From Nitrospira sp. (GTDB taxonomy: Bacteria > Nitrospirota > Nitrospiria > Nitrospirales > Nitrospiraceae): 64,000 bases of DNA. Below the pieces are notes generated by a model. The model saw only the letters and a program-made list of their open reading frames with translations, searched no databases and was not told the DNA's origin. The translations under genes were made by a program, and so were the position numbers. The stretch lies in contig JAFEBI010000006.1 in NCBI GenBank assembly GCA_018242725.1, positions 75,888 to 139,887 of the forward strand, given 5' to 3'. Shown here one piece after another: positions 7,703 to 58,003 of the stretch (position 1 is its first letter; every line of letters begins with the position of its first letter).

Positions 7703-7817
7703 AGGACCGACTCTATGTGCTGGGTTATTGAGTCGATCGGTGTATCTGGTAGGCGGGTATGCCACTATAGCGACGTGTCCCAATTCGACCAGGCTGATCT
7801 CGCATATCCGAGTTAAG

Positions 7818-8795: not shown

Positions 8796-8959
8796 GTTCT
8801 GGCTTCATGACATAGAGGGCAGTTCACTCGGATGGGGGATCGCCTTTGATCCAGTTCTCTCGTGACGTATCGATACCGCATTGCGGAGCGTGAATTGTGT
8901 TTGCATGCGGTCTAGGCAAGTGCTGACAATGCTCAAATACAAAACGGTATGAGCCGATT

Positions 8960-10114: not shown

Positions 10115-10227
10115 CGCGATCGTGTTCAATTTCATGTCGTCTCAACTGAGGACAACGAGTGAAGGTGGCTCTTGAACTGGTACGCCACTTATCGAGGTTC
10201 GCACGATTTGATAGGTCGTTTCTGACA

Positions 10228-10316
10228 TCGCGACGCTGTCGCGAAGGGGTTGAAAGGATTTGGTCTCTGGGCACGGCAATCAAGGATCTGGTTTTGTCCT
10301 TTCGTAAGTCCTTGAT
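10228..10316 (+). promoter_or_regulatory. Structured leader before the O-antigen ligase gene
   Basis: The 217-base gap 10115-10331 holds two inverted repeats. One is TCGCGAC-gct-GTCGCGA (10228-10244), a 7-bp stem with a 3-base loop. The other is ATCAAGGA (10279-10286) with TCCTTGAT (10309-10316), which ends 15 bases before the ATG at 10332. No U-tract follows either, so they do not look like terminators. They may form RNA structure near the start of the waaL-like message. Confidence 0.3.
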
Positions 10317-10331
10317 CGTCTTTGTGTATAC

Positions 10332-16276: not shown

Positions 16277-17377
16277 ATGAGCATTCTGGTCACCGGTGGA
16301 GCGGGGTTTATTGGGGCCAATTTTGTGCTCGACTGGTTGACACAGCATGATGAGCCTGTGATCAATCTTGACAAGCTCACGTACGCGGGCAATCTGGAGA
16401 GCCTTGTCAGCCTGGGAAACGATGAGCGGCACATCTTCGTGCGAGGCGATATCGGCGATGCTGCGCTCGTCGGGAAACTATTGACGGAGCATGGTCCGCG
16501 AGCGGTCATCAATTTCGCCGCTGAAAGTCACGTTGATCGATCCATTCATGGGCCAGGTGAGTTTATCCAGACGAACATCGTCGGTACCTTTCACTTGCTT
16601 GAATCAGTGCGTGCCTATTGGGGGGCATTGGCAGGCGAAGCCAAAGAACGTTTCCGATTTTTGCATGTTTCCACGGATGAGGTGTACGGCTCATTGACGA
16701 AGAATGCGCCGGCCTTCAGGGAAACGAGTCGCTATGAGCCCAACAGCCCCTATTCGGCCAGTAAAGCGGCCAGTGACCATCTTATACGCGCCTATCACCA
16801 TACCTATGGTCTTCCGGTTCTGACCACTAATTGTTCGAATAATTATGGTCCGTACCAATTTCCTGAAAAATTGATCCCGCTCTGTATCTTGAACGCGTTG
16901 GCTGGGAAACCACTTCCGATCTATGGCGATGGATTGCAAGTGCGAGACTGGTTGTACGTCCAGGATCACTGCCGAGCCATCGGTCTTGTGCTTCAGAGCG
17001 GCCTTGTGGGAGACACCTATAATATCGGTGGTTGGAGCGAAAGGGCCAACTTGGATGTCGTGCAGACCCTCTGCGATATTCTGGATGAACTCAAACCCGT
17101 ACGTGGTGAGCGGCAGGTAGCCAGTGGGGAACAAGCGCTCGGTAGTTACCGTTCTCTGATCACTTTTATTAAAGATCGACCAGGGCACGATCGTCGGTAT
17201 GCAATGGATGCCGGGAAAGTCGAACGTGAGCTAGGTTGGAAGCCTCTCGAAACATTCGAATCCGGTCTGCGTAAAACTGTGACCTGGTATCTCCAAAATC
17301 AACGTTGGGTTACCAGCGTGACCAGCGGTGCCTACCGCGCATGGATCGGTCAACAGTACGGCGCTGGAGCGCGATGA
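16277..17377 (+). CDS. rfbB: dTDP-glucose 4,6-dehydratase
   Basis: 366 aa SDR enzyme of the dTDP-L-rhamnose pathway. NAD-binding motif [18 protein letters not shown]. The catalytic stretches are [13 protein letters not shown] (with the DE pair that separates dehydratases from epimerases) and [20 protein letters not shown] (YxxxK). The C-terminal [14 protein letters not shown] is typical of RmlB. A ribosome site AAGGAGA lies about 11 bases upstream. It overlaps rfbD by four bases (ATGA), giving the operon rfbBDA. Confidence 0.95.
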
Positions 17378-18270
17378 AGATTTTGTTAACCGGTAAGCAT
17401 GGTCAGGTCGGGTTTGAGCTTCAACGGGCACTGGCTCCTCTGGGGAAGATCCACGCCGTCGACTACGCTGAGTGTGATCTGGCCGACGCCGCGGCGATCT
17501 CTGCCCTGGTGCGATCGATCAGACCAGATTTGATCGTCAATCCCGGGGCATACACGGCGGTGGATAAGGCAGAGTCAGATTCTGGATTGGCTCATGCTGT
17601 CAATGCCGTTGCACCAGGAATCTTAGGGGAAGAAGCGGCGAAGCTGGGCGCGTGGGTGGTACATTATTCGACCGACTATGTATTCGATGGTACGAAGTCG
17701 GGGGGCTATATGGAAGATGATCCGACTAACCCGCAAAGTGTCTATGGGCGGACTAAAAGGGACGGAGAGATCGCACTCCGAGAAAGCGGAGTGCGATCTC
17801 TCATCTTTCGTACAAGCTGGGTAGTCGGAGCTCATGGGAACAATTTTGCGAAAACCATCCTGCGATTGGCTCTTGAACGCGAGCAGTTGACAGTGGTGGC
17901 CGATCAGTATGGCGCGCCAACGTCGGCAGCCTTACTGGCAGATGTGACGGCTCAGTTGATCCGTCAACGGCAGCGTGAGGGAGATGAGAGCTTTCCCTTC
18001 GGCTTGTACCATCTTGCCGCAAGTGGGGAAACGAACTGGCACGAGTACGCACGGGTTGTCGTATCGGAAGCTCTTTCGGCTGGTAGACCGTTGAAACTAG
18101 CACCAGATGCTCTTCGAGCGATTTCCTCGTCAGAGTATCCAACTCCTGCTAAGCGCCCTGCCAATTCACGGCTAGACACCGGCAAGCTGCGCCGGACCTT
18201 TGGGTTGGAACTACCTGATTGGCAGCAGGGTGTCCGGTATGTCCTGCAACAGATTCTGAGGGAACCATGA
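17374..18270 (+). CDS. rfbD: dTDP-4-dehydrorhamnose reductase
   Basis: 298 aa from ATG 17374. NAD(P)-binding motif [20 protein letters not shown], then [13 protein letters not shown] and the YxxxK element [11 protein letters not shown]. It reduces dTDP-4-keto-L-rhamnose to dTDP-L-rhamnose. It is four-base coupled to rfbB and rfbA. The coding sequence contains a perfect 16-bp inverted repeat (17765-17802) just after the catalytic motif, described separately. Its usual partner enzyme RmlC is broken in this cluster. Confidence 0.94.
17765..17802 (+). repeat. Perfect 16-bp inverted repeat inside rfbD
   Basis: GAGAGATCGCACTCCG (17765-17780) and its exact reverse complement (17787-17802) are separated by six bases, AGAAAG. 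As RNA this gives a very stable hairpin within the rfbD coding region, at residues about 131-143. No T-run follows, so it is not a classical terminator. It encodes ordinary-looking RmlD residues ([12 protein letters not shown]). It may affect mRNA stability or polarity. Confidence 0.85.
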
Positions 18271-19151
18271 GTATACGGAAAGGAATTATCCTTGCTGGTG
18301 GATCCGGAACGCGACTGTATCCAGCCACGCTAGCGATCAGCAAGCAGTTGTTGCCGGTGTTTGACAAACCGATGATCTACTATCCACTCAGTACGCTTAT
18401 GCTGGCAGGAATCCGCGAGATTCTCATTATTTCCACGCCACAGGACACGCCACGCTTTGAGCAACTTCTCGGCAACGGTAAGCAGTGGGGATTGGACCTC
18501 CGCTATGCCGTCCAGCCGTCGCCAGACGGTCTTGCACAGGCCTTTCTGATCGGCGAATCATTCATCGGTAACAACTCTTCTGCGTTGGTGCTGGGCGATA
18601 ACATTTTCTATGGTTATGACTTTCATCGCCTGCTGGGGAATGCCATGTTCCGCACCGATGGAGCCAGCATTTTTGTTTACCATGTCCAAGATCCTGAACG
18701 ATATGGAGTTGCTGAGTTCGATGTGCAGGGGAAAGTCTTGTCGATAGAGGAAAAACCGCAGCAGCCGAAGTCCAACTATGCCGTGACTGGTCTCTATTTC
18801 TATGATCAGCAGGTTGTCAGTCTGGTCAAGAGTCTGAAGCCTTCGGCACGTGGCGAACTGGAGATCACCGACCTGAACCGGCTGTACCTGAAGCAGTGCA
18901 CGTTGAACGTCGAAATCATGGGACGTGGATATGCCTGGCTGGATACCGGCACCCATGAATCGCTGCTTGATGCCAGTCAATTCATTGCCACGTTGGAAAA
19001 CCGTCAAGGCTTAAAGGTTGCCTGTCCGGAAGAAATCGCCTACAAACAAAAATGGATTGACGCCAGTCAACTGAAGCAGCTCGCACAACCCTTGGCTAAG
19101 AATGGTTATGGCCAATATTTGCTGAAGATTCTCACGGAAAAAGTATTCTAA
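18267..19151 (+). CDS. rfbA: Glucose-1-phosphate thymidylyltransferase
   Basis: 294 aa from ATG 18267, ATGA-coupled to rfbD. The nucleotidyltransferase signature [20 protein letters not shown] leads to [19 protein letters not shown]. Further RmlA marks are [21 protein letters not shown]-type [20 protein letters not shown] and [18 protein letters not shown]. It forms dTDP-glucose from dTTP and glucose-1-phosphate. The stop codon overlaps the ATG of the rfbC remnant by one base, which keeps the usual rfbA-rfbC junction. Confidence 0.95.
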
Positions 19152-19382: not shown

Positions 19383-20204
19383 ATGCAACAGTTTTCAACA
19401 TCTCCTCACGAAATGGCGGCGAGTTTTTGGCGCAATCGCCAACTTATCTTTGAGTTGACCAAGCGCGAAGTGGTGGGCCGTTATCGTGGCTCGATGATGG
19501 GGATCGCATGGTCGTTCTTCAACCCCGTGCTCATGTTGGTGGTTTATACGTTCGTCTTTTCCGTCGTGTTCAAGGCTCGCTGGGGGAGCGGAGGCGAAGA
19601 AAGTAAGGCCAGTTTTGCTCTCATGCTGTTCGTCGGCATGCTTGTCCATGGGCTATTTGCTGAGTGTCTGAATCGTGCTCCCAGTCTGATTTTTTCTAAT
19701 CCTAACTACGTCAAAAAAGTCATTTTCCCATTGGAGATATTGTCGTGGGTTGTACTAGGCTCGGCGCTCTTTCATGGTGCCATTAGTCTCATGATCTTGC
19801 TGGCAGCGCAGCTCATTTTGACCCAGCAACTCGTGTGGACGGTAATGTTATTCCCCTGCGTGCTCGTACCGTTAGTGTTTGCTAGCGTGGGATTTGCCTG
19901 GTTTTTAGCTGGGCTAGGTGTGTATGTCCGGGACATTGGGCAGGTGACCGGCATGGTCACGACGGTCTTGATGTTTCTTTCGCCCGTGTTTTATCCGATG
20001 AGTGCCTTGCCAGGAAAGTATCAAACGTGGTTACAGCTCAATCCGCTCACCTTCATCATTGAGGAAGGGCGCAATACGTTGATTTTAGGTAAGGTGCCAG
20101 ATATTGGGCAATGGAGCATCATGTTAACGGTGGGGCTATTCATCGCATGGGCAGGGTTCGTATGGTTCCAAAACGCTCGCAAGGGATTTGCTGATGTCCT
20201 TTGA
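19383..20204 (+). CDS. wzm: Polysaccharide ABC exporter, permease subunit (Wzm)
   Basis: 273 aa, six hydrophobic helices. The cytoplasmic N-terminal segment WRNRQLIFELTKREVVGRYR and the following GSMMGIAWSFFNPVLMLVVY are diagnostic of ABC2-type polysaccharide exporters. The C-terminal LSPVFYPMSALPGKYQTWLQ and LNPLTFIIEEGRN are likewise conserved. It pairs with the ATPase gene that overlaps its 3' end by 11 bases. It exports a completed O-chain or glycan across the inner membrane. Confidence 0.93.
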   Translation: MQQFSTSPHEMAASFWRNRQLIFELTKREVVGRYRGSMMGIAWSFFNPVLMLVVYTFVFSVVFKARWGSGGEESKASFALMLFVGMLVHGLFAECLNRAPSLIFSNPNYVKKVIFPLEILSWVVLGSALFHGAISLMILLAAQLILTQQLVWTVMLFPCVLVPLVFASVGFAWFLAGLGVYVRDIGQVTGMVTTVLMFLSPVFYPMSALPGKYQTWLQLNPLTFIIEEGRNTLILGKVPDIGQWSIMLTVGLFIAWAGFVWFQNARKGFADVL

Positions 20205-21603
20205 AATAGCCATCAAGATTGAGAATCTGAGCAAGTGCTATCCGATTTACAGCCGGCCGGGTGATCGATTGAAGCAGTCAATCTATCCGCGTTTGCAGCG
20301 GATGGTCGGGAAACAGCCTGTGCAGTATTATCGTGAATTTTGGGCGCTGCATGATATTAGCTTTGAAGTACTGCGGGGTGAAGCAATTGGAATCCTTGGT
20401 CGTAATGGGGCAGGGAAAAGCACGCTTCTGCAAATCATCGCCGGTACAGTGATGCCAACTTCTGGCAGCGTGAAGACCGAAGGTCGCATTACGGCATTGC
20501 TTGAGCTGGGGAGCGGCTTCAATCCGGAGTTTACGGGGCGCGAAAATGTATTTTTGAATGCGCAGATTCTCGGCCTGACACGGGAAGATACGATAAATCG
20601 CTTCGATGACATTGCGAGCTTTGCGGACATCGGCGATTTTATCGATCAACCGGTCAAAACGTACAGTTCCGGAATGATGATGCGGCTCGCATTTGCCGTT
20701 CAGACGGCCGTTGAGCCCAAAGTCTTGATCGTGGATGAAGCTCTGTCTGTGGGCGATATGTTCTTTCAGGCGAAATGCATGGCAAGAATTTCCAGATTGG
20801 TGGAGTCTGGCGTGGCGCTCTTGTTTGTCAGTCACGACATCAGTGCAGTACGGCAACTATGTCAGAGAGCGGTGCTGTTGGATGGTGGTGTGGTGCGATC
20901 AGTGGGGGCGGCAGCAACGGTGTCCGACCAATACGTCAAACTACAACTCGAAGAAAGAAATCAGTCCGCACGGAACATGTCTGTCAAGAAGATAGGTGAA
21001 GCATCGGGCTTCGCCGCTGAGACGGATTTGGAAAAGTCATGTGCCGACACGGATAGTGCCAATTGTCAAATGCATGACAGTGTTTTTGGGCAGGAGGCTT
21101 TTCAAAAGCGAGCCCAGCATCATCGCGTCAGTAATGGCCATGCAAAGATAATCAATGTACAAATGTTGCGGAATGAAGACCATAGTGCAGATTTTGATTT
21201 TGATGACGTGGCAGTCATTCGGGTTTTTGCAAGTTTTTCCAAGGCGTTGAATAATCTGAACCTCGCAATCAAGATACGTACGCTTCAGGGGACGGATGTG
21301 GTGTTCTTTGATACGCGGCTACAAGAAGAGATGTCACGTCACTACAAAGCCGAGACTATTTATCTCTTCGAATGGGCCATGAAGCTCCCGCTGCTGCATG
21401 GCAATTATTCAGTGGCTGTTGGGCTTGCTCATCCGCCTGATGTGCCTGGGGCAGATTGGATCTTTGTTGATGTTGTGCCCCATGCATATGAGTTCAGGGT
21501 GGCTCCACGAAAAAATGGAATGATTGATGGATTGGTCACGTTACCGGCGTCGCTTGCCATACAAGAAGTAGTGCCAGGTTTGACCATGAGATACTGCCCG
21601 TGA
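20194..21603 (+). CDS. wzt: Polysaccharide ABC exporter, ATPase with C-terminal glycan-binding domain (Wzt)
   Basis: 469 aa from ATG 20194. Walker A is ILGRNGAGKSTLLQIIAG (residues about 67-84), the ABC signature is TYSSGMMMRLAFAV, Walker B is VLIVDEALSVGD and the H-loop is FVSHDISAVRQLC. Residues about 310-469 form an extra beta-rich domain (VIRVFASFSKALNNLNLAI, LLHGNYSVAVGLAHPPDVP). This is the Wzt C-terminal domain that recognises the capped end of the O-chain in E. coli O8/O9a-type systems. Its presence suggests that a terminal modification, perhaps by a neighbouring methyltransferase, signals export. Confidence 0.93.
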   Translation: MSFEIAIKIENLSKCYPIYSRPGDRLKQSIYPRLQRMVGKQPVQYYREFWALHDISFEVLRGEAIGILGRNGAGKSTLLQIIAGTVMPTSGSVKTEGRITALLELGSGFNPEFTGRENVFLNAQILGLTREDTINRFDDIASFADIGDFIDQPVKTYSSGMMMRLAFAVQTAVEPKVLIVDEALSVGDMFFQAKCMARISRLVESGVALLFVSHDISAVRQLCQRAVLLDGGVVRSVGAAATVSDQYVKLQLEERNQSARNMSVKKIGEASGFAAETDLEKSCADTDSANCQMHDSVFGQEAFQKRAQHHRVSNGHAKIINVQMLRNEDHSADFDFDDVAVIRVFASFSKALNNLNLAIKIRTLQGTDVVFFDTRLQEEMSRHYKAETIYLFEWAMKLPLLHGNYSVAVGLAHPPDVPGADWIFVDVVPHAYEFRVAPRKNGMIDGLVTLPASLAIQEVVPGLTMRYCP

Positions 21604-27094: not shown

Positions 27095-28303
27095 GTGAAA
27101 CAACTTTCCATCGCCATCTTCGGTAATACGAACAACTATCCCTTGTTGTTGGCGCAAGGGCTGCGTGTACTCGGGCATAATGTTCGCCTCATAATTAATC
27201 GCAAAGAGCTCTTACATCGCCCGGAAGCTCGCTACCCGGAGTGGGCAGCGGCTTATCCGGATTGGATTGCAGATTGCTCGAATTTATCTGATGAAGACAT
27301 TGCGTTTGAAACACCGGCAATCGACCACGTCATTCATCACTTGAGGCATAATGTTGACTTCGTCATTCTCAACGATGTAGGCCCTGCACTCGCGTGTTAC
27401 CTGAGGACTCCTTATGCGGTTGTGTTGACCGGTTCAGATTTGGCTTATTACGCCAATTATGATTCGCTCGAAATGCGAACCGGCATGTGGGATCCGGAAT
27501 TCAAACGTTGCTTACAAGGACGACGGTATATTCGGCGTATGGCTGACCTGGTGGCTCGTCAGCGTGACGGGATTCTGGCGGCGGAGGTGGTGTGCTATGG
27601 ACAGCGAGGATTAGTCTCGTCAGGTGATCGACTCCTAGACGGCATCGGAGTAGCGGATGCGCGCCGGTTGATGCTGCATTTTTCAAATACCATTGACTTG
27701 AAGGCGCAACCATCAGCTAAGAACGATAAACTCACCATCCTGTGCGGGAGTCGGGTGGTGTATCGACCTGATCATAACCCGTCTTTGAGCGCAATGGACT
27801 TCAAGGGAACAGATGTCTTAATGAAGGGCTTTGCACTCTATTGTCAGCGAGGAGGAAAGGGGGAGTTGCGACTCCCACGTAAGGGGCAAGATCTCCAAGC
27901 TGCAATTGATCTTATTTCTGAATTAGCTATTACGAAACAAGTGTACTGGCTCGATGAAGTGCCTCTTGCGCGGTTCTATCAAGAAATGGTTGCAGCTGAT
28001 GTGGTGTGTGATCAGTTTGGCTCATCGTTTCCTGGCATGGTGACAACAGATGCCTACGCGTTGGGTCGCCCGGTGATGGCAAAGCTTAGACCCGAGATTT
28101 TCAGTCAGCGCTTTCCTGAAGCGTTGCCGGGGTTTAATGCCGAAACACCCGAACAAATTGCCGATTGTTTGATGGTGATGGAGAAAGAACGAAGTATTTT
28201 GGCTGACATAGGCCAAAAGAGTCGAGCCTATGCTGAAACCTATTTGTCGCCAGAAAGCATGGCAAAGCAATTGTTGAACAAGTGTGGCCTATGTGCGGAA
28301 TAA
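27095..28303 (+). CDS. Putative glycosyltransferase, GT-B fold
   Basis: 402 aa from GTG 27095. The N-terminal LSIAIFGNTNNYPLLLAQGL resembles the first Rossmann strand of GT4-like enzymes. The C-terminal VVCDQFGSSFPGMVTTDAYA, then LGRPVMAK, is a degenerate GT4 donor site in which the usual E-x7-E is changed. It overlaps the asparagine synthetase fusion by 13 bases. Likely function is transfer of a sugar to the growing glycan. Similarity to well-characterised enzymes is low. Confidence 0.65.
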   Translation: MKQLSIAIFGNTNNYPLLLAQGLRVLGHNVRLIINRKELLHRPEARYPEWAAAYPDWIADCSNLSDEDIAFETPAIDHVIHHLRHNVDFVILNDVGPALACYLRTPYAVVLTGSDLAYYANYDSLEMRTGMWDPEFKRCLQGRRYIRRMADLVARQRDGILAAEVVCYGQRGLVSSGDRLLDGIGVADARRLMLHFSNTIDLKAQPSAKNDKLTILCGSRVVYRPDHNPSLSAMDFKGTDVLMKGFALYCQRGGKGELRLPRKGQDLQAAIDLISELAITKQVYWLDEVPLARFYQEMVAADVVCDQFGSSFPGMVTTDAYALGRPVMAKLRPEIFSQRFPEALPGFNAETPEQIADCLMVMEKERSILADIGQKSRAYAETYLSPESMAKQLLNKCGLCAE

Positions 28304-31300
28304 CCGGGCTTTTCAACTTCGCAACATCGCTGCCTGAGCCAGATCTTGCCGAGCGGCTTGTTCGTCGCATGATGGATAGTCTAGTGCATCGTGGGCCCGA
28401 TGCTGAAGGCATGTGGGCAGATCAGCGAAGGCGATGCGTGCTTGGTCACCGCCGGCTCAGCATTATCGACACATCCGAGGCTGGTCGTCAACCGATGGCA
28501 GGGCATGCTAGCCCATGGGTTATTGCGTTCAATGGGGAAATCTATAACTTCCAGGAGTTGCGCCGAGAATTGGAAACAATCGGGACTCGCTTTCATGGGC
28601 GTACGGATACCGAGGTTCTTTTGGCTGGTCTTGCTGCCTGGGGTGTGAAGGTTCTTGAGCGACTGGACGGCATGTTTGCCTTTGCAGCCTTTAACCGCGA
28701 GTCGGGAGAGATTCTACTGGCACGTGACCCATTCGGCGAGAAGCCGCTCTATTATTTGGAACTGCCTGGTGGGGGACTGGCGTTTGCATCGGAGCTGCAT
28801 TGCTTGGAGGTACTACCGGGATTTGACGCGGAGCTGAGCCTGGATGCGATGGCAGAAGTTCTGATGTTCCAGTATGTCGGTGCTCCGAGAACGATCTATC
28901 GCTCGGTTAAGAAATTGCAGCCGGGATATTGGCTGCTCTGTTCGCCGAACAGACTACAGGAGATCGGGCGCTATTTCGAGTTTGAACCGGGACGAGCTGG
29001 CTTTGAACGACGGGCGATCAACGATCTCGCGGATGAGCTTGAGGAGCTTTTAATCGTGAGTTTGCGCCGACGGCTGATATCCGATGTCCCGCTCGGTGCC
29101 TTTTTATCCGGAGGGGTTGATTCTTCTACCGTGTGCGCCCTGATCCGCAAACGTCTGGGCGTGCCGCTCAAAACATTCTCAATGGGTTTCGAAGGCGCGG
29201 AAGAGAGCGAGCTTAACGTTGCACGCCAATTCGCGCAGCACCTCGACACAGAGCATTATGACTACACACTCTGTCCAGATACGACTCATTTTCTTGAGGA
29301 GATCGGCAGGGTCTTAGATGAACCCAACGCAGACAGTTCCTGTATGCCGACCTACCTTCTGTCAGAGTTTGCTCGTCGCCAGGTGACTGTGGCGATCTCG
29401 GGAGATGGCGGAGATGAGATGTTCGGGGGGTACGGCCGATATTTCGAGACCCTACAGGAACAGCAGGGAATCGGCGGATTCTTTCCCTCGGCGAGGCTGC
29501 CGGGGCAGGCGTATTACTCGGGGCGGATCTTGGTCTTCGAAGCAAAGTCGATCGAGGCGCTCTTCGGCTGTTTTCCGGATGGGCTCGCTCAGCATCTCGG
29601 TGCTCTGCAGGAAGAACTCAACCGATCGAGGGAGAATCTATTGTGCGCACTTCGTAAGACGGATGTAGACAACTACCTGCCCGGTGCAGTGTTGCCGAAA
29701 GTTGATCGGATGAGCATGCAGCACTCGCTTGAAGTGAGGACGCCCTTCCTGAACGTGGCGTTGGCCCGTTTTGCCGAGCGCCTGCCGCCTGAAATGATGG
29801 TGAGAGGCCGTCATGGCAAACTCGTTCTTCGGGAGCTGGCCTATCGTTATTTGCCAAAACACCTGATCGACATGCCGAAGAAGGGGTTTGGGATTCCGAT
29901 GTCGGAATGGGGGAAAAGAGAATTGCTCGAGTTGGCGGAGCGTGTGCTTACGCATGACGATAGCCGCATGCTTGAAATGTTGGGGCATGAGCGCATCAGG
30001 GAATTTCTCTCCCGGCAGGGTCATCGGGGAGGGTTTGCCACCTATCAGGTTTGGGGCATGGTGATGCTTGAATCGTGGTTACGAGCCCACTCGGGCCGCC
30101 TACCAAAGTTCACTGAGGGCAAAGTTCGTGGCCAACCGGTAGGAGCTGGAGTGCCTCCTGCACCTCTTTCAGCCGGATGGCTTACGCCTCATGTGCTTGC
30201 TGTGTTGCCACGGACCCTAACGCAAGGTTTGACTGGGCCGTGTGACAGCGTAGAGAAGCGGGAGCAGCGGGATCGATTTTCGACGGTTATTGCCGGCTTG
30301 TGTTGTGAGTGGGGAGCGGAGTGTTTTGCCGTCCGGTTCACTGAAAGCCAACAGTACTTCGATGCGCGCGATTTGCCAGCGGATGAAAATCTTGTTGAGG
30401 CCTTGAGCAAATCAGGGTTTGTGTTGCATGGTGCGAGGGTTGTGATTGCTGATTCGGATAGTGAGACCCATGTGACTCCAAAAACCCTGCTCGCATTCCA
30501 AAAGTCTGGCGCCAAAGAGCTATGCTACAGCCAATTGGATCCTCCATATTTCAGGATAGTATGCTTTAACACAAAAGGGATGCTTCGCTGGATGTTTGAT
30601 GTGGCGCAACTAGGAGCACGGGCCATTGCAAGGTGGAGTTTGATACGCTCGCATCATGCGAAAGGGCTTCTTTACGTGAGTGGGTTGTTCAGAAAGTTGC
30701 CCATGGTTGCGGATCAAGAGTTGTCCCATCAGGTGATGGTGTTCGAGGGATGGAAGCAGTTGCCACCGATGTTCTCCTCGCACGAAGTCATTTCTTGTCA
30801 GGGAGAGGGGCGGTACTCAGTCTGGAATCAACATATATTTTTCTCCACCTTGGCGAGCGGAAAGCCAAGGTGGCTTGGTTTACTCAGCCCATACTGGGCT
30901 GTCGAGAACAACGCGAAGAATGCGCCATTGCTCCCTATGTCCATCCCTTCCATGCAGAAAACAAGTTTGTCGGGGTTGGATTTTGTGTCCCGGCTTGAAA
31001 AATATATGGAGATTGTAAACCGTCGCAAGCCTCATCAGCCGCCAGGTGGAGGCAACTCGAAACGTGTGGTGATATTAACCCCTGCGTTGCAACCAGGCGG
31101 AGCCGAACGGCAATGGTGCTATCTGGCGATCGGGTTGAAGCGCTTGGGCTACGACGTTAAATTTCTGACGGAATGCTGGCTTGAGGGTGAAAAAGCCCAC
31201 TATCAACCGCTCCTTACTCACAGCGGCGTGGAAGTTTATGAGCTGGGAGATGTGGATGCTACGCGGCTGGCTAGGTCCATCGCGCTGCACCCAGACGCTC

Positions 31301-32259
31301 ATGCCTTGCTGACGCCGGATGGTTCACTTTTTGGGGTCAGGCTGGTTCAGTTGGTCACGTTATTGGACGAATTCCGTCCCGCAGCACTCTATGCCCAACT
31401 TGACTCGACGAATATTCTCGCAGGAGTCGCCGGTATGATCGCGGGAACTCCCAAGACCATCCTCTCATTTAGAAATGTGAATCCATCGAACTTCTCCTAT
31501 TTGCAAAATGAGTGGTTTTTGCCCTGCTATAAGATGTTGGTAAAAACCCCCTCGATCGTTTTGTCGGGCAACTCTCGTGTTGGATGCGATGATTATGCCC
31601 ATTGGATTGGGATATCTCCGGACAGGGTCAAATACATCGGCAATGCAGTAAGTGACGAATTGATGCCTCGGTTGGGAAATGGTGCGGCAGTGCCTATTCC
31701 CGGTGTGCCAGACCTGTCGTCAGCTAGCCCTGTGATTCTAGGGGTGTTTAGGCTCTCCGAGGAAAAGCGGCCGCTTCTGTTTCTGGATGTGTGCGAGAAG
31801 ATTCATGCCATTGTTCCGGCAGTTCGTGTGCTTATTGCAGGGGTGGGCCCGTTGTATGCGGAACTGGCTATGGCGATTCAGAAAAAAGGAATTGGCGATT
31901 ACGTCACACTGCTTGGGCGTCGAGATGACGTGAATGAATTGATGCAGCTATCATCCTTGTTGTTACTTACCTCGGCATATGAAGGTACGCCGAACGTCGT
32001 GATGGAGGCACAAGCCGTGGGTGTACCTGTCGTCGCCACGGATGTGGGTGGAGTCTCAGATATAGTGGTTGATAGCGAAACCGGTTTTCTGGCAGATAAG
32101 GATGATGCGGAGGCATTAGTGCGGGCCTGTAGCAGGATATTGTTGGACGAATCCATTCGATCTCGTATGGGGGCAGCTGCAAAATCACGCATTGCAAAAT
32201 TGTTTTCTGTGGACACCATGGCCAAGCAGTACCTTGAATTGATTCAAGGCGATAAGTGA
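28291..32259 (+). CDS. Asparagine synthetase (glutamine-hydrolysing) fused to a GT4 glycosyltransferase
   Basis: 1322 aa. I chose ATG 28291 because class II amidotransferases need Cys right after Met (MCGITGLFNF). Residues 1 to about 610 are AsnB-like: HRGPDAEG, AFNGEIYNFQELR, GRTDTEVLL in the glutaminase, and FLSGGVDSSTV (PP-motif, residues 273-279) with ISGDGGDEMFGGYGRY in the synthetase. Residues about 640-800 are unrecognised. Residues about 811-870 carry a module (FEGWKQLP, GEGRYSVW) shared with the next gene. Residues 925-1322 are a GT4: ILTPALQPGGAERQWCYLA and LLTSAYEGTPNVVMEAQAVG. The fusion probably amidates a uronic acid sugar and transfers a sugar to the same glycan. The frame shows no stop across 4 kb, and codon use is continuous. 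Confidence 0.9.
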   Translation: MCGITGLFNFATSLPEPDLAERLVRRMMDSLVHRGPDAEGMWADQRRRCVLGHRRLSIIDTSEAGRQPMAGHASPWVIAFNGEIYNFQELRRELETIGTRFHGRTDTEVLLAGLAAWGVKVLERLDGMFAFAAFNRESGEILLARDPFGEKPLYYLELPGGGLAFASELHCLEVLPGFDAELSLDAMAEVLMFQYVGAPRTIYRSVKKLQPGYWLLCSPNRLQEIGRYFEFEPGRAGFERRAINDLADELEELLIVSLRRRLISDVPLGAFLSGGVDSSTVCALIRKRLGVPLKTFSMGFEGAEESELNVARQFAQHLDTEHYDYTLCPDTTHFLEEIGRVLDEPNADSSCMPTYLLSEFARRQVTVAISGDGGDEMFGGYGRYFETLQEQQGIGGFFPSARLPGQAYYSGRILVFEAKSIEALFGCFPDGLAQHLGALQEELNRSRENLLCALRKTDVDNYLPGAVLPKVDRMSMQHSLEVRTPFLNVALARFAERLPPEMMVRGRHGKLVLRELAYRYLPKHLIDMPKKGFGIPMSEWGKRELLELAERVLTHDDSRMLEMLGHERIREFLSRQGHRGGFATYQVWGMVMLESWLRAHSGRLPKFTEGKVRGQPVGAGVPPAPLSAGWLTPHVLAVLPRTLTQGLTGPCDSVEKREQRDRFSTVIAGLCCEWGAECFAVRFTESQQYFDARDLPADENLVEALSKSGFVLHGARVVIADSDSETHVTPKTLLAFQKSGAKELCYSQLDPPYFRIVCFNTKGMLRWMFDVAQLGARAIARWSLIRSHHAKGLLYVSGLFRKLPMVADQELSHQVMVFEGWKQLPPMFSSHEVISCQGEGRYSVWNQHIFFSTLASGKPRWLGLLSPYWAVENNAKNAPLLPMSIPSMQKTSLSGLDFVSRLEKYMEIVNRRKPHQPPGGGNSKRVVILTPALQPGGAERQWCYLAIGLKRLGYDVKFLTECWLEGEKAHYQPLLTHSGVEVYELGDVDATRLARSIALHPDAHALLTPDGSLFGVRLVQLVTLLDEFRPAALYAQLDSTNILAGVAGMIAGTPKTILSFRNVNPSNFSYLQNEWFLPCYKMLVKTPSIVLSGNSRVGCDDYAHWIGISPDRVKYIGNAVSDELMPRLGNGAAVPIPGVPDLSSASPVILGVFRLSEEKRPLLFLDVCEKIHAIVPAVRVLIAGVGPLYAELAMAIQKKGIGDYVTLLGRRDDVNELMQLSSLLLLTSAYEGTPNVVMEAQAVGVPVVATDVGGVSDIVVDSETGFLADKDDAEALVRACSRILLDESIRSRMGAAAKSRIAKLFSVDTMAKQYLELIQGDK

Positions 32260-32322: not shown

Positions 32323-32760
32323 ATGGAAACCAATCCACTAAAGATGGAAGTTTGTGCAGAAAAATTTGAAGGTTCTGTCATGCTGGTCACGCTATACCTG
32401 ATGGCCGTCGGCGCATGGCTGGCCCTGACAAAGCAAATTTCTCTCCCCCCCTTACTAAGGATAGTGTCTTCATACTTCTACAAACGATACCGAGGAAAAC
32501 TCGAAAAATATGTTCCGGATCAGGGGAAGTGTTTCGTTGCGTCAATACCGCCTCGTCTCATATCCGATCAGGAAGGGTTTTCGCGGATAACGCTTTTGGA
32601 AGATGGCATTCCTTTGCCATGCGGACATGCGGCGCATGAAGATATCCGCCTCAAAGGCGAGGGGCGTTATTCACACTGGGGGGCGCAGATTTACTTCTCC
32701 TCTTCCGATAACTCCAACCCGATCACGAATGGAAAGCGATATGAGCTTGTCGAACTTTGA
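32323..32760 (+). CDS. Small protein with a GEGRYSxW module, N-terminal hydrophobic segment
   Basis: 145 aa from ATG 32323; a TTG at 32302 is an alternative. Residues about 12-35 are hydrophobic (SVMLVTLYLMAVGAWLALTK) and may anchor it in the membrane. Residues about 80-145 read ITLLEDGIPLP, KGEGRYSHWGAQIYFS and NPITNGKRYELVEL. That end resembles residues about 811-870 of the preceding fusion protein. I know this motif as recurrent in proteins of glycan loci, but I cannot name a domain. It overlaps the following methyltransferase gene by 20 bases. It may be a detached or truncated domain of a larger protein. Confidence 0.55.
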   Translation: METNPLKMEVCAEKFEGSVMLVTLYLMAVGAWLALTKQISLPPLLRIVSSYFYKRYRGKLEKYVPDQGKCFVASIPPRLISDQEGFSRITLLEDGIPLPCGHAAHEDIRLKGEGRYSHWGAQIYFSSSDNSNPITNGKRYELVEL

Positions 32761-33682
32761 CATGGATACTAACGCTGCGCTCAAACGGGTGGGGGATAAT
32801 CTAATAGATCCTTCTTCTAGAGAGCAATTACGTTTGGTCGGGGACGAGTTTGTGTCGGGATCCTCAAGGTTCCAGGTGGTGCGAGGCGTTCCGCGGTTCG
32901 TAGCCTCTGATATGTACGTCCGATCGTTCAGCCTGGAGTGGAACACCCATAATCAGACTCAGCTTGACTCATTTCGGGGCGATAATTCCTCAGAAGATCA
33001 ATTTGTAAAGAAGACGGGCTTTAATCAGGAGGCGCTCTCGGGAAAGTTGGTTCTTGATGCAGGAGTCGGCGCGGGACGATATTGCGATGTGGTCAGCCGA
33101 TGGGGAGCAGATGTGGTCGGCGTTGATCTCAGCTATGCCGTAGAGGCATCAGCGGTTACATTCCGCGATCGGAAAAACGTCTGGATCGCGCAGGCAGATA
33201 TCGGAAAACTTCCATTTGCTGACGAAACGTTCGATTATATTTTCTCGATCGGGGTGCTGCATCATACTCCCAATACCAAAGCTTACTTCATGAAGCTCGT
33301 GCCGTTGCTTAAAAAAGGCGGTGTGATCTCGATTTGGGTTTATCCTGCTACGCCTGACTATGTGGCTAGGAAGGCCTGGGTTCCGTTCGTCAACAAAATT
33401 CCACCCGAGATGTTTTACAAGTGGTGCAGATGGTTCGTGCCATTTCTGGATCGAAATAGAAATGACCGATTGGCTGGGTGGCTTGCAAGAGTGTTCCCTC
33501 ATTCTGATCAGGGGCTTGGTCTCGAAAATGATATTCTCGATACGTTTGACGGCGTATCTCCTAAATATCATGGTGTCCATTCCCCTGACGAAGTGCGTAA
33601 CTGGTTTACGGAGGCAGGTTTGATTAACGTTATTGAACCCAGCACATGGCAATCTTGCATGCAAGGCACGAAGCCCCAGTAA
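32741..33682 (+). CDS. Class I SAM methyltransferase with Trm112-like N-terminus
   Basis: 313 aa from ATG 32741; ATG 32762 is possible. Residues about 15-55 (LIDPSSREQLRLVGDEFVSG, then VVRGVPRFV) look like a Trm112-type domain that lacks its zinc cysteines. The SAM site is LVLDAGVGAGRYCDVVSRWG, then VVGVDLSYAV, and post-I is FDYIFSIGVLHHTPNTKAY (Methyltransf_11). The final residues GTKPQ look like a natural end. An IS1595 element begins 151 bases downstream. Probably a glycan- or lipid-modifying enzyme. Confidence 0.8.
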   Translation: MSLSNFDMDTNAALKRVGDNLIDPSSREQLRLVGDEFVSGSSRFQVVRGVPRFVASDMYVRSFSLEWNTHNQTQLDSFRGDNSSEDQFVKKTGFNQEALSGKLVLDAGVGAGRYCDVVSRWGADVVGVDLSYAVEASAVTFRDRKNVWIAQADIGKLPFADETFDYIFSIGVLHHTPNTKAYFMKLVPLLKKGGVISIWVYPATPDYVARKAWVPFVNKIPPEMFYKWCRWFVPFLDRNRNDRLAGWLARVFPHSDQGLGLENDILDTFDGVSPKYHGVHSPDEVRNWFTEAGLINVIEPSTWQSCMQGTKPQ

Positions 33683-34674: not shown

Positions 34675-34744
34675 AAATTAAATCGCTGCCATTATCTGCA
34701 ATCTCAGTGAATGTGAGAAGCGTGACCAGAACCAAGGCTTCGTG

Positions 34745-37700
34745 ATGCACACTGTCTTACGAACAAAACAAATCGCGAAACACATGCTCGCTTACTATCG
34801 TGCCAATGGGCCAATTAAGACCGCTGCGGCCATATTTCGAAGAGTGTTGGGGTATCGGTGGGGGGATGAAAACCCAGTGAGCGGCCTGGAGAACGGGCGG
34901 ACGCAATATGTTCCTGCGCTCTCGATTGAATATGTAGTGAGATATGAAGAAGCGGACATGAAACGGCTGGGGCCCATCATGCAATCAGCCACCTTCATGC
35001 AGGAACTCTCTCTCAATATGGACTACATTTCATCGCTGGAAGTCCTCCTTACAACCGATGCGCGATCCAATACAAATACTAATCAGATTGCGCTGTTGTC
35101 GGATGGAGGTCATGTGCTGTACGAAGAGGAGCTCGCCTCACTGTCCGTTAAAGGTGACAGTTTCTATGCACTACGTCTGGGCGGCGATTTGAATACCCAG
35201 AACTCGCACCGGATCTATTTAGTACTGCGTTCATCCGATGGCACCGAAAACAACGGTATCATGGCATGGCGTAGCATAAAAGGTGAGAGCCCGCTCTATG
35301 CTCTGTCGCGGTGGCCTGGCACGGACGAATTAGTCAGTCCGGAGCGTCTCCTGCTCCAAGGAACATGTCTGGAAGGCTCACTCATTGTGCGCATCACAGG
35401 GAAGCGCATGAAGGGCGTGCAACAATATCCGCGACCACCGTTCCCATCCGGGTTTAGTCAGCAGTCGAGTGAGTCTCTTTGCGTCATTGCCATGATCGTT
35501 GATGCGCAAGGCGATATATCCGAAGAAGGTCACGCCCATCTTCTTGAGTCGGCTATGCGGAAGAAAGGACACCGGATTTATATCGTGTCCCCGCAAGAGG
35601 CTATCCGGCGGTGGAGTCATCTCAAGCCAGAGGTGCTGGTGTTCCATCGTACGAGGCTCTCTGAAGAGGTCCGTCAGTTACTGCTTCTGGCCAAAATGGC
35701 CTATGTGCCGACCGTGTATCTGTGCGAGGAAGAAATCCACCCAGATGTTGTGCTGCGCGAGGAAATCGAGATGCGCAAGGAATCGCCTCGGCGCACACTG
35801 ATGCGGGAGCGCTTCGCGCTGTTCAAAGCCAGCGATTTTTCTATCTGTGTAAGTGAGAACTTATGTAATTGGTCGCGCCGTAATTACAAGACGCCATTGA
35901 GAATGTATGAGATGGATTCGGATAGGCGCCACAGATCTTGGAATGCGATAGTCCGCACCGATATTGTTTCTGAGATTCGAACAGCGTATCGAAAGCGGCA
36001 CTTGCCGATGTTTAGTGTTGTGAGTGTGCTCTACGGCAAGGCCAAGCAGCTTCAGCCTGTACTGGAGTCATATTTTCGACAATCGTATGAAGGAGAAGTC
36101 GAGATTGTTTTTGTAGATGATCAGACCCCCGACGACTCTGAGCGAGTGATTGCGCAATGCATCCAGACGGCGAAACAAAGCGGCCGATATCGCAAACTGC
36201 CGCTGATTCGGGTCATTCGAAACGAGAAAAATCTGGGAAACTGTGTGTCACGCAACCGAGGTATACGTGAAGCACAAGGTGACGTCATTATCGTGATCGA
36301 TGCGGATTGCATGGTGAACAAGGATTTTCTGAGATGCCATGCTGATGCGCATTCCTTCGACGATTGTGAAGTGGTGATCGGCCCCTTCAATCTTGAGACA
36401 CACTGGCGGGATCCCTTGACCGTTCTAGAAGAGTATGAGTCGAAGTTGGAACGAGTGTTGGCCGATAGTCTGCCTCAGGATTGGATGAACGACCGAAGCT
36501 TTTTGAACTGTATTACCAGAAACTTCTCTATCAAGACTTCGTTTGTACGTGAAGAACTATTTGATCCGGCATTTTCCTATTCAAAAGATCCAGAGTCAGG
36601 ATTCGGCTGGGAAGACGTCGAGATGGGCTATCGGTTGTATATGAGGGGAGCGCGAATCAAATATGTTTCAGAGGCGTTTAGTCTCCATATTTCCCATCCT
36701 CCGAGCGTGGACGAACGGAGCAAACCACTGAGGTCGCTGCGCAATTATCGACGACTTTTCGAAAAGCACCCGGAATTGGTATATGTCGCGAGGCGATGGG
36801 CACTGGACATGTATGAGAACATTTGTGCATGGGGCGACAAATATGAGCTTCCCAAGAATGACGACAGGCGTGTTCTCGATAGCATGTTTCAGCGGTCTGT
36901 TCCCCAACCCTTTTCAGTCAAACGTAACAGGCCATTGAGGATTCTAACCTACCGCTGGCACGTGCCGCACCAGTATGAACTCTATAAACTGCCCTATCAG
37001 TTTACCCTGATCACAGATGCTGGGACGGCAATGACGCAGAGCTGGGAATTGCGTCACCGGCCAGTACCAAACAACGTTCAGTTTAGTTCCCGTGATGAGC
37101 TAGATGTGCGAGATTTTGATCTCGCGATTTTACACTTCGATGAGAATGCTTTGGCTCCGGAACGTACAAATGGTGTGATCGGCGGAGATTGGGGAAAGAG
37201 CTTTAAGTGGTTTCAGCAGAATGTCGACCTACCCAAAGTGGCTATTTGTCATGGAACTCCCCAATTCTACGGCCAGTACGACATTAAATACGATGGGGCC
37301 GACCTGATGCAAGTTATGGAAGATGAAAGATGTCGAGTTGTCGACTTCCTTGGAGATGTGTTGGTGATTACCAACTCCTACCAGGCACAGCGCGAATGGG
37401 GATTCATGAACTCGAAGGTGATTTGGCACGGGTTTGATCCGTCCGAGTTCCCACCGTCGACTTATGAGAAAGGAATCATTTCGCCATTCGGTCCACTGGT
37501 TTTATCTCGTCCACACTACCGTGGTTTTTTCATTTACGAGAAAGTGTTTTTGAAATTTCCGAGGGACTATCCACCGGCTACACTATACGTGCCGGATCCT
37601 GATGTGCTCTACAAGGGAAACAATTATGCGATAGGAATGTTTCAGAATTATGTGCATGAGCTTCGGCGGTATTCAGTGTACTTCAATCCGACGCTTCGAT

Positions 37701-37975
37701 CGCCTATGCCGCGGGCACGCGGCGAGGCTATGTTGTGCGGACTGGCTACCGTCAGCGCAAAGAATCACGATGTTGAGATGTTTATTAAGAACGGCATAAA
37801 CGGGTTTTACGCCGATGACGTCGACGAACTACGGGAACATCTACTTTTTCTCATGAAGAACCCAGTAAGCGCTAAGAAAATAGGAATGGAAGGGCGGCAA
37901 ACCGCTGCAGATGTTTTTAATCATGATCGCTATCTCGCTGAGTGGGAAGCAACTCTCTCTAAACTTATTGGCTAA
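34745..37975 (+). CDS. Giant multi-domain glycosyltransferase (GT-A plus GT-B)
   Basis: 1076 aa from ATG 34745 (GTG 34742 also possible). Residues about 50-210 are beta-rich and unrecognised. Residues about 240-400 look like half of a GT-B fold (SLCVIAMIVDAQGDISEEGH). Residues about 421-650 are a GT2 catalytic domain: FSVVSVLYGKAKQLQPVLES, FVDDQTPDDSERVIA, VIDADCMVNKDF and GFGWEDVEMGYRLYMRG. Residues about 728-1076 are GT4-like: RILTYRWHVPHQYELYKLPY and PTLRSPMPRARGEAMLCGLA. It could add two different sugars in succession. It is the first gene after the IS element. Confidence 0.82.
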   Translation: MHTVLRTKQIAKHMLAYYRANGPIKTAAAIFRRVLGYRWGDENPVSGLENGRTQYVPALSIEYVVRYEEADMKRLGPIMQSATFMQELSLNMDYISSLEVLLTTDARSNTNTNQIALLSDGGHVLYEEELASLSVKGDSFYALRLGGDLNTQNSHRIYLVLRSSDGTENNGIMAWRSIKGESPLYALSRWPGTDELVSPERLLLQGTCLEGSLIVRITGKRMKGVQQYPRPPFPSGFSQQSSESLCVIAMIVDAQGDISEEGHAHLLESAMRKKGHRIYIVSPQEAIRRWSHLKPEVLVFHRTRLSEEVRQLLLLAKMAYVPTVYLCEEEIHPDVVLREEIEMRKESPRRTLMRERFALFKASDFSICVSENLCNWSRRNYKTPLRMYEMDSDRRHRSWNAIVRTDIVSEIRTAYRKRHLPMFSVVSVLYGKAKQLQPVLESYFRQSYEGEVEIVFVDDQTPDDSERVIAQCIQTAKQSGRYRKLPLIRVIRNEKNLGNCVSRNRGIREAQGDVIIVIDADCMVNKDFLRCHADAHSFDDCEVVIGPFNLETHWRDPLTVLEEYESKLERVLADSLPQDWMNDRSFLNCITRNFSIKTSFVREELFDPAFSYSKDPESGFGWEDVEMGYRLYMRGARIKYVSEAFSLHISHPPSVDERSKPLRSLRNYRRLFEKHPELVYVARRWALDMYENICAWGDKYELPKNDDRRVLDSMFQRSVPQPFSVKRNRPLRILTYRWHVPHQYELYKLPYQFTLITDAGTAMTQSWELRHRPVPNNVQFSSRDELDVRDFDLAILHFDENALAPERTNGVIGGDWGKSFKWFQQNVDLPKVAICHGTPQFYGQYDIKYDGADLMQVMEDERCRVVDFLGDVLVITNSYQAQREWGFMNSKVIWHGFDPSEFPPSTYEKGIISPFGPLVLSRPHYRGFFIYEKVFLKFPRDYPPATLYVPDPDVLYKGNNYAIGMFQNYVHELRRYSVYFNPTLRSPMPRARGEAMLCGLATVSAKNHDVEMFIKNGINGFYADDVDELREHLLFLMKNPVSAKKIGMEGRQTAADVFNHDRYLAEWEATLSKLIG

Positions 37976-38253: not shown

Positions 38254-39924
38254 ATGATCCATCTTGATAACTGCCAGATCTGTGGGCATAACCGCTTCCT
38301 GCTATGGCATAAAATCAAGGAATGGTCTTTTGCGCGGTGCGAGGGCTGCGGATTTATCTTTCTGAACCCCAGGCCGCCGATCGACTATTTTAAGGAGTTC
38401 TACGATCCGCTCTCACAATACGATTATAAGGTCGAAGGAGTAGAGTACATCAAGAAGGAAGCCGATTTTATCAGTGCTTACCACCAGCAGTTCGAAGTCA
38501 TTGAGACTGTTGCACAGAAGGGAAGTCTCTTGGAAATTGGATCGGCATGCGGATACTTTCTCGAGACTGCACGGCAACGGGCTTGGAATCCCTACGGTGT
38601 CGAACTAAGCACGGGTGGGGCGAACTATTGCGAGCAGCGTTTCGGTATCAAGGTATTCAACGGCGACGTCTTAGACGCCGGCTTGCCTGCAAATTTCTTC
38701 GACCTCGTGGTCACAATTCACACGCTCGAGCATGTATATAATCCTGCGACGCTGGTCAAGGAGTGTGGAAGGATCACGAAGCCCGGTGGGATATTTATTG
38801 TGGAAGTTCCGTACATCCCTGACGAGAATGACCGGTCCGCCGTCAATCCCGCCGATCTGCCGGCACATCTGAGCCTGTTCACGAAACGGACATTGGGCGA
38901 CGTGCTCGTACGGTACGGGTTTACGGTGATCAGGACTGAGAATAATGAGAAGGACTGCATTATCAGAATGACGGCTGAAAAGCAGGGTCTATCAATCGTC
39001 AGGAGGATGTTCCGCCAGCTAAAAAACACGGTAATGCCTCAATTGCATTGGCTTGCGCTGTTGCTCCGCACACTCCGGAGCCACCTGGGAAATGCTGTGG
39101 TTACCAGTGAAGCTAGGCCAAAGGGCATTCCGGGATTGGACGAATATGCATATCAAACGCATTCACCTCCGAGGAATAGCATGCCTGAAAGGAGTCTGAA
39201 GTTCGCCAAGCGAGAAGGAGGGAGGTATGCCTGGCATCAGTTCGGCAATTATATCCCCCCACTCTACTCGTTTTTGACCGATGAGGAATGGAACATTCTG
39301 GAGGGTTGGTATGACGACACGGAAAAGGAGAAGCTCCTCCGAGAATGCAATATCCCGTTTCTGAGCGTCGTGCAGGGATTTATTATGGGTAGTGTCATTG
39401 ACAGGATTGTGCAGCTCGGACATTTTGCGGGATATTCTACACTGCTGATCGGGTTCATGATGAGAAAGATGCAGAAGAAGCGGACGTTCCTTACAATCGA
39501 TATTTCTCGTCGTTGCTGTGACTACACGAGAAAATGGGTGGAGATTGCCAAGATCGAGGAGTATGTCTCCATTGAGTTGGGGGATTCAGCGGACCCCAAG
39601 ATGATCGCCAAAGCGGAAGAACTATTTCAGGCGCCACCGAAGGCCATCGTGCTCGACTCGTCGCATCAATACGAGCATACGATGAGCGAGCTCCGGCTCT
39701 GGTATCCGGCGCTGGACAACGGAGGGTTCATTTTCTTGCACGATTCAGGGGAGTACGCGAAGGAGTTCGACTCGACGAAGAAAGGCGGCGTGCATGTCGC
39801 GATGCAGGAATGGCTTGCACAGACAAGGGAAGCGCGGGCGATCAATATTTATCCGCCTGCCCATACGTACGCAGACCCTATTTATAAAGACCCGTGTGGG
39901 CTGGGGATCATTCAAAAACTGTGA
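38254..39924 (+). CDS. Two-domain protein: zinc-ribbon C-type methyltransferase plus Methyltransf_24-like domain
   Basis: 556 aa with a strong ribosome site GGAAGGAGG. Residues 1-40 bear zinc-ribbon cysteines (CQICGHNRFLLW, then CEGCGFIFLNPRPP). Residues about 85-200 are a first SAM domain (SLLEIGSACGYFLETARQRA, VVTIHTLEHVYNPATLV). Residues about 380-556 form a second SAM-type domain (GHFAGYSTLLIGFMM, TIDISRRCCDYTRKW, KAIVLDSSHQYEHTMSELRL, GGFIFLHDSGE) resembling cephalosporin-hydroxylase-like and Methyltransf_24 proteins. Each domain is usually a separate gene. It probably makes two modifications on one glycan component. Confidence 0.8.
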   Translation: MIHLDNCQICGHNRFLLWHKIKEWSFARCEGCGFIFLNPRPPIDYFKEFYDPLSQYDYKVEGVEYIKKEADFISAYHQQFEVIETVAQKGSLLEIGSACGYFLETARQRAWNPYGVELSTGGANYCEQRFGIKVFNGDVLDAGLPANFFDLVVTIHTLEHVYNPATLVKECGRITKPGGIFIVEVPYIPDENDRSAVNPADLPAHLSLFTKRTLGDVLVRYGFTVIRTENNEKDCIIRMTAEKQGLSIVRRMFRQLKNTVMPQLHWLALLLRTLRSHLGNAVVTSEARPKGIPGLDEYAYQTHSPPRNSMPERSLKFAKREGGRYAWHQFGNYIPPLYSFLTDEEWNILEGWYDDTEKEKLLRECNIPFLSVVQGFIMGSVIDRIVQLGHFAGYSTLLIGFMMRKMQKKRTFLTIDISRRCCDYTRKWVEIAKIEEYVSIELGDSADPKMIAKAEELFQAPPKAIVLDSSHQYEHTMSELRLWYPALDNGGFIFLHDSGEYAKEFDSTKKGGVHVAMQEWLAQTREARAINIYPPAHTYADPIYKDPCGLGIIQKL

Positions 39925-55991: not shown

Positions 55992-56281
55992 GTCGAATCT
56001 CCTTATCTGAAATTATGAGGTGAGGTGCTCAACTGGCTTGTATCATAGCAAAGAAATACGTACGTGTCATGAGGTAGAGCTTTGGCAAGTTGAGCCTCCC
56101 AAGTAATATGCTGGAGCATAGTTCTGTATGGGATGCCGGGGGCCATTGGTGATGTGACAGGATGGGTGAAAGGTGATTTCTCTTTGAGAAAAGGATATGC
56201 TGTGCGCCCAAAAAGCACCTCACAGTTCTATCCATGCAGGCTGTCTTGGATTTGCCTCGACGGGAAGAGGAAAGGTCGACC
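55992..56281 (+). other. Divergent intergenic region before the phosphonate genes
   Basis: These 290 bases separate divergent psiF and pepM. A possible promoter toward pepM is TTGGCA with AATATG 17 bases on, near 56082-56110, but it is weak. I see no Pho box (a CTGTCAT-type repeat) and no RNA gene. GGAAGAGGAAAGG, 5-17 bases before ATG 56282, is a good ribosome site. Confidence 0.35.
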
Positions 56282-57916: not shown

Positions 57917-58003
57917 TGCTTCGTCTCTCCAGGGTCTTCTGTGAAACAGTGTGCGTCTGAACAGCATGTGCCAGTGATTGAAGAACCGTAAGGATAAGAA
58001 CGC

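Follow-up and report, generated by a model that had tools for sequence, protein, structure and literature searches.

AsnB-type amidotransferases are known from surface-glycan loci. According to the accessible text of PMC7468200, WbpS/PGN_1234 of P. gingivalis is an AsnB-type enzyme of a glycan locus that is needed for uronamide, and WbpS and WbqG are both assigned to TIGR03108. The first-pass annotation of the DNA studied here had stated that such enzymes act in glycan loci as separate, uronamide-forming proteins, and WbpS/PGN_1234 agrees with that statement as far as this text goes. The window, which is the whole 64,000-nucleotide stretch of Nitrospira sp. DNA that we analyzed, carries one open reading frame in which an AsnB-type part and a family 4 glycosyltransferase (GT4) part lie on the same chain. 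A gene fusion strongly hints that its parts share a function. A literature search whose reach left out most subscription papers returned no description of an AsnB-GT fusion, and none is described in the accessible part of PMC9614988. The fusion ORF, its parts and its immediate neighbors are as follows.

27095..28303, + strand: upstream ORF, weakly GT4-like (below Pfam and NCBIfam cut-offs)
28291..32259, + strand: AsnB-GT4 fusion ORF, 1,322 aa (translation, ORF list, codon usage)
28291..30099, + strand: AsnB-type amidotransferase/synthetase, residues 1-603 (Pfam, NCBIfam, alignments)
30100..30267, + strand: linker, residues 604-659, with the weakest coding signal (codon usage, motif positions)
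30268..30675, + strand: orphan stretch without a detected relative, residues 660-795
30679..30909, + strand: degraded copy of the 'GRYSHWG' module (a name coined here), residues 797-873 by alignment, profile match at 813-853 (profile built without this row)
31054..32247, + strand: GT4 glycosyltransferase domain, residues 922-1319, E-x7-E at 1231-1239 (Pfam, alignment, motifs)
32323..32760, + strand: 145-aa ORF with a hydrophobic segment (by eye) and an intact module copy (profile match)
32741..33682, + strand: methyltransferase-like ORF whose start, as chosen by us, falls within the end of the module ORF

Reading frame and enzyme domains

The ORF runs from ATG to TGA over 1,322 codons, its translation has a terminal stop and no other, and its first 13 nt also form the end of the upstream ORF. 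The chain consists of the AsnB-type part (residues 1-603), a middle region (604-921) and the GT4 part (about 922-1320). Codon usage was scored in 34 windows of 60 codons, the last of which extend beyond the end of the ORF, and in 33 of them the fusion frame scored highest among the three forward frames. The exception lies at residues 841-900, where frame 3 scored 0.09 and the fusion frame 0.04; scores were also close at 801-860 (0.07 vs 0.05), and the fusion frame had its minimum, -0.04, at 601-660, yet was still the top frame there. Because the module match described below fixes the frame independently of codon usage, the fusion frame is coding at residues 813-853. The single terminal stop and the codon usage bear out the earlier claim of a one-frame AsnB-GT fusion. 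A site scan of 29800-31300 found no terminator-like site and, on the + strand, no promoter-like site.

Within the AsnB part, a GATase subdomain (about residues 1-172; GATase_6, 141.7 bits) precedes an Asn_synthase subdomain (249-598; 276.8 bits), both above the Pfam cut-offs, and the model for glutamine-hydrolysing asparagine synthase, TIGR01536, scored 456.1 bits against a curated cut-off of 267.1. The motifs MCGI, FNGEIYN, SGGVDSS, SGDGGDE and PKKGFG start at residues 1, 80, 273, 370 and 529, respectively. In an alignment of seven rows (A9), residues C2, R55, N81-G82-E83, D106, S273-G274-G275, D277-S279 and K530 are invariant between the fusion and six other AsnB proteins, and we take them to have their usual roles in the AsnB family. 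The form SGEGSDE, carried by 1ct9 (E. coli) and 6gq3, is absent, and SGDGGDE stands at 370-376; among the seven rows of A9, five have GDGGDE, with GDGADE in genome G263 and GEGSDE in G017. Aspartate may be a less likely substrate of this part because SGEGSDE is replaced by SGDGGDE, a signature that we presume to decide the substrate. The model for the XrtA/PEP-CTERM amidotransferase (TIGR03108, eps_aminotran_1) scored 452.1 bits, far under its cut-off of 816.9.

The C-terminal part belongs to GT4 by a Glycos_transf_1 score of 114.5 bits (cut-off 26.4) together with its motifs, which are GGAERQ from residue 936, FRLSEEKRP, and EGTPNVVMEA from 1231, whose E1231 and E1239 we take to be what is called E-x7-E in GT4. 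PF13439, which models the N-terminal half of GT4, scored 27.4, slightly short of its cut-off of 28.5. Apart from this small shortfall, the motifs and Pfam scores uphold the earlier description of a complete-looking AsnB, with Cys2 and SGGVDSS, followed by a GT4 domain.

Unfused relatives and the surrounding cluster

A GT4 profile with rows from the own genome, G123, G231 and Solidesulfovibrio was searched at E up to 1e-60 against 395 genomes of the phylum, and found 15 places in 14 of them. Just one of these places, that in the own genome, is in frame with AsnB, so the search for the same domain order gave no second in-frame AsnB-GT4. Profiles A2, A8 and A4 hold rows from the window, and the own-genome matches to module and GT4 therefore arise by construction. 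For the other 14 places, ORF lists were examined in G123, G231, G236, G263, G232, G211 (two places) and G180; those in G301, G206, G125, G348, G397 and G311 were judged unfused because their printed frames of 228-654 aa are too short for both enzymes. Six genomes had GT4 matches with E below 1e-100 (own, G123, G231, G236, G263 and G232), the match in G236 containing one internal stop. Within the genus, matches at E up to 1e-80 occurred in 2 of 79 genomes, the own and G123; of these two, the own genome alone has the fusion. No place in any of 613 plasmid records or 22 phage records covered at least 80% of the whole chain. In each of the six best plasmid records, the annotation gives AsnB and GT as two genes, and the seventh carries no annotation; viral contigs gave no relative, and a genome-contig scan, sensitive to close relatives only, gave one distant GT and no fusion.

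A second AsnB fusion was considered in G017 (L028 8183-12157, minus strand), where an open frame of 1,326 aa was printed, yet this frame has a stop after AsnB and continues 17 codons on, in the same frame, as a 682-aa ORF that looks oxidoreductase/epimerase-like by eye; the locus is one stop from a fusion. Because of this stop, printed open-frame lengths are not strict. The genome search that gave G017 showed no other fusion among the matches listed.

The organization of the two genes in relatives is varied. On the minus strand of L105 in G232, asnB (9037-10962, 641 aa) overlaps GT4 (7655-9052) by 16 bases, and each product has 34% identity to the matching half of the window protein. In G123, which belongs to the same genus, one gene separates asnB from GT4, which has a long N-terminal extension and is followed by a radical SAM gene with the module. 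The Solidesulfovibrio plasmid has the GT first and asnB after it, and also carries a module-SGNH gene, about 5 kb away and separated from them by transposase genes. Because relatives keep AsnB and GT4 as separate, sometimes adjacent genes, the fusion looks like two merged working neighbors. That plasmid (L036, NZ_CP026539.1) has similar polysaccharide genes interspersed with IS66, IS5 and Tn3 elements, a scattering that suggests lateral spread. Elsewhere among the matches, a 1,627-aa ORF of G211 (L106 6212-11095), which was read by eye, has two GT4-profile matches and a third GT-like part, and in G180 a GT4 match lies in an 899-aa ORF followed by asnB.

By Pfam and NCBIfam, with some short ORFs outside the Pfam scan, the window is a surface-polysaccharide cluster. 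It includes the following genes.

1519-2946: flippase of the Polysacc_synt type (Pfam)
10332-11552: Wzy_C gene (Pfam)
16277-19151: sugar-nucleotide genes of the dTDP-sugar kind (our reading of the Pfam hits)
19383-21603: ABC exporter with Wzt_C (Pfam)

Further cluster genes encode GT2, GT4, GT9, a DegT aminotransferase, methyltransferases and WbqC. When the whole own genome was searched in six frames for the UDP-sugar dehydrogenase domain PF03721, one place was found, on contig C11; none was found on the window contig C31, and hence none in the cluster. The cluster also holds a 1,077-aa GT2 plus GT4 protein (34742-37975), the first 400 residues of which have no assigned domain, and a 556-aa double methyltransferase (38254-39924). 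Further downstream, a PEP mutase fused to an NTP-transferase domain (56234-57916) is followed by a TPP-enzyme gene (58004-59137), which we read as being of the phosphonopyruvate decarboxylase type; together, the genes at 56234-59137 look like phosphonate synthesis for polymer decoration.

The middle region and the accessory module

Residues from about 621 to 795 form an orphan region. When residues 610-922 were searched in 98 genomes, no relative was found outside the module; the matches were to the own genome, including the module copy of the next ORF, and to G024 (E 7.5e-4, with four internal stops). The middle part outside the module likewise had no relative in plasmids, viral contigs, Pfam or NCBIfam, and residues 638-794 found nothing better than E 0.35 in the PDB. 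Homology to the long N-terminal GT extensions of G123 and G263 was considered and rejected, the aligned motif VTPKTLLAFQKSGAKEL with LTNKMLKQVAGTGARSI being no better than shuffles. For residues 621-800, the score was reached by 64% (G123) and 29% (G263) of 1,000 shuffles, and for residues 621-921 by 5.8% and 43%, respectively; a two-row profile score was reached by 39% of 120, and hhalign gave a probability of 0.4%. Between themselves, the extensions of G123 and G263 do show a relationship (Z 21). A REP-like repeat at the junction was also rejected: the 176-base linker stretch had no convincing second copy in the genome, where the five other matches were 15-25 bases long with E values of 2-7, and the core pattern of the stretch had no further copy in the window. 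AlphaFold models from two-row alignments had mean pLDDT values of 31.6 for the middle part and 48.9 for the module ORF, which do not justify a fold search.

The 'short module' of the first-pass annotation is real, at residues 813-853 and perhaps 797-873, and has to be qualified as a degraded copy. The independent test of membership was a profile built without the fusion row: from 30 other copies, it picked out the fusion with E 5.3e-10 when run on the 467 six-frame window segments, residues 813-853 matching positions 3-43 of the 59 in the model. In the same search, the next ORF (32323-32760) scored 99.2 bits (E 2e-30) and is itself a row of the model; the next best segment had E 0.17. The module has 55-60 residues and the consensus E-x-G-x-P-L-G-P-x-x-S-x-H-x-x-I-x-x-x-G-x-G-R-Y-S-x-W-G-x-x-L-x-F-S-x-S-D-N-S-D-P-x-T-N-G-R-x-Y. 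The conserved second half, SDNSDPxTNGRxY, is missing from the fusion copy, where LASGKPRWLGLLSPY replaces it, and this copy keeps 14 of 28 conserved columns, compared with 18-23 of 25-28 in the 30 others. Module copies, located in the window at 32323-32760, in L036 and in L042-L076, had no Pfam match and a best PDB profile match of E 0.63 or more; the NCBIfam scan took in the middle of the fusion and no other copy.

Residues 813-853 match the next ORF (32323-32760), and by way of it a module family that is present in 13 of 295 genomes of the phylum and 9 of 175 of the family, the own included, and also on the Solidesulfovibrio plasmid. All six genomes with GT4 matches below 1e-100 fall within these 13. 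In four of the five unfused ones (G123, G263, G231 and G236, not G232), the nearest large ORF beside GT4 carries the module; because G231, G236 and G263 share one genus, these are fewer than four independent cases. The neighbor ORF lists for these five genomes started at 200-330 aa. No module gene was seen beside GT4 in G232 or on the Solidesulfovibrio plasmid. By Pfam, ten chosen host proteins comprised two GDSL/SGNH hydrolases, two radical SAM/SPASM proteins, two methyltransferases, one GT2 and three without a Pfam hit; of these three, one looks by eye like a secreted protein with tandem repeats and another like a membrane protein. In L074 (5628-7700), the module is tandemly repeated in a secreted-looking protein. 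The methyltransferase-like ORF next to the module ORF of the window, scanned over 32603-33682, matched NCBIfam methyltransferase models, all of the 25 listed matches falling short of the cut-offs; in L069 and L071 a single protein combines module and methyltransferase, and resemblance suggests the same for L073.

It is conceivable, if doubtful, that the module, as yet undescribed, serves in docking or ligand binding and gathers many glycan-tailoring enzymes (SGNH hydrolase, radical-SAM, methyltransferase, GT2, GT4) on a single intermediate, and that the AsnB-module-GT4 chain is a natural fusion that places amidation and chain extension in the same assembly step. The module, which is shared across clusters, may be the more novel part compared with the fusion. 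With four enzyme types in relatives besides the GT4 chain, it provides a separate lead on how surface-polymer enzymes are organized.

Proposed function and comparison with known enzymes

Our preferred reading, to which we assign a probability of about 0.58, is that an AsnB gene and a GT4 gene next to it fused, giving a two-function enzyme that would act on a glycan intermediate. It draws on the expected motifs in both enzymes, the unfused adjacent versions, the module found in all genomes with the closest GT4 relatives and mostly beside their GT4, the uronamide-making AsnB-type enzymes of glycan loci, and the lack of a terminator- or promoter-like site at the join; counted against it are the occurrence in one genome, the missing module gene beside GT4 in G232 and on the Solidesulfovibrio plasmid, the shared genus of three of the four supporting genomes, the weak coding signal of the linker, an AGGAG-GTG site, the preference for frame 3 at 841-900, the degraded module, the low pLDDT of the middle part and the lack of a UDP-sugar dehydrogenase in the cluster. 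The fusion could have originated when the stop between neighboring AsnB and GT4 genes, in the order still kept in G232, was lost; the GT4 half would have contributed an N-terminal region in which the module was already present or had been acquired. The N-terminal Cys2 site would release ammonia from glutamine; the synthetase site, with ATP, would activate a carboxyl on the growing glycan or on a sugar-nucleotide precursor to yield an amide; and the GT4 domain would add a sugar to that amidated intermediate, or transfer it. The protein probably amidates a carboxyl on a glycan intermediate, which could be that of a uronic acid or of an amino-acid substituent, and a uronamide is a plausible product. 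The earlier suggestion that amidation is tied to chain assembly would agree with the adjacent separate AsnB and GT4 genes of G232 and Solidesulfovibrio, although these fall short of proof. The most economical reading is that a glycan carboxyl is amidated in a step coupled to sugar transfer. If the chain makes both products, glycan amidation would be tied to one defined transfer step, and the amidated sugar would be directly testable.

The frame could instead conceal two genes, with a sequencing or assembly error hiding the AsnB stop and the cell making two proteins. The six other AsnB proteins of A9 stop 5-22 residues past the Trp aligned to W596, which is 601-618 on the fusion numbering, and an in-frame GTG at 30151 (residue 621) with AGGAG 5 nt upstream would suit the start of a separate gene, as would a fusion found in only one of the 395 phylum and 79 genus genomes. 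However, codon usage favors the fusion frame across the join, and at 813-853 the module match shows this frame to be coding. The AGGAG-GTG site is a weak hint only, because AGGAG or GGAGG stands 4-10 nt ahead of 5 of 132 in-frame start codons in the fusion ORF (GTG 30151 counted); in other ORFs the figure is 10 of 812 internal start codons. We consider two separate genes unlikely.

The same GTG is a possible internal start, old or still active, and a real fusion might thus yield dual products, internal initiation adding a free GT of about 702 aa. The 5-nt spacing would allow this, and the GTs of G123 and G263 (651 and 658 aa) likewise have long N-terminal extensions; but such sites are not rare in the fusion ORF, at 5 of 132, and those extensions have no detectable relation to the fusion middle, and we regard dual products as quite unlikely. 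That the fusion is a recent accident, decaying and with one half inactive, would fit its degraded module copy and its presence in a single genome, but the expected catalytic motifs are present in both enzyme domains, which makes decay very unlikely in our view.

The preferred reading, a fused two-function enzyme, can be set against described enzymes on both sides of the join. The AsnB part resembles the asparagine synthetases of 1ct9 and TIGR01536 in its fold family, as judged from sequence, in passing the curated cut-off, and in Cys2 and SGGVDSS; it differs from them by SGDGGDE in place of SGEGSDE and by its long GT4-bearing C-terminal extension. Its best solved relative is the hydroxyamidotransferase 7ylz, to which residues 1-514 align (E 4.8e-54), but which has SGEAADE at the signature position and no GT part. 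On the GT4 side, the best solved sequence matches (2jjm, 5d00, 6eji, 4xso and 8dqd) share the C-terminal, donor-side half with E-x7-E, whereas the best 29 solved matches begin no earlier than about position 100 of the 420 in the profile, most of them near 190 or later, and the domain here is fused to AsnB. Residues 903-1318 also align to positions 259-691 of 694 in TviE of the Vi polysaccharide (NCBIfam NF011726), at 144.2 bits against a curated cut-off of 733, which places the fusion outside that family. With WbpS, WbqG and PGN_1234 it shares an AsnB-type enzyme within a surface-glycan locus; those, as far as the accessible text of PMC7468200 goes, are separate proteins involved in uronamide making, whereas the AsnB domain of the fusion lies below the TIGR03108 cut-off and is joined to a GT. 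The fusion is rare in the data searched, and is a variant of known parts.
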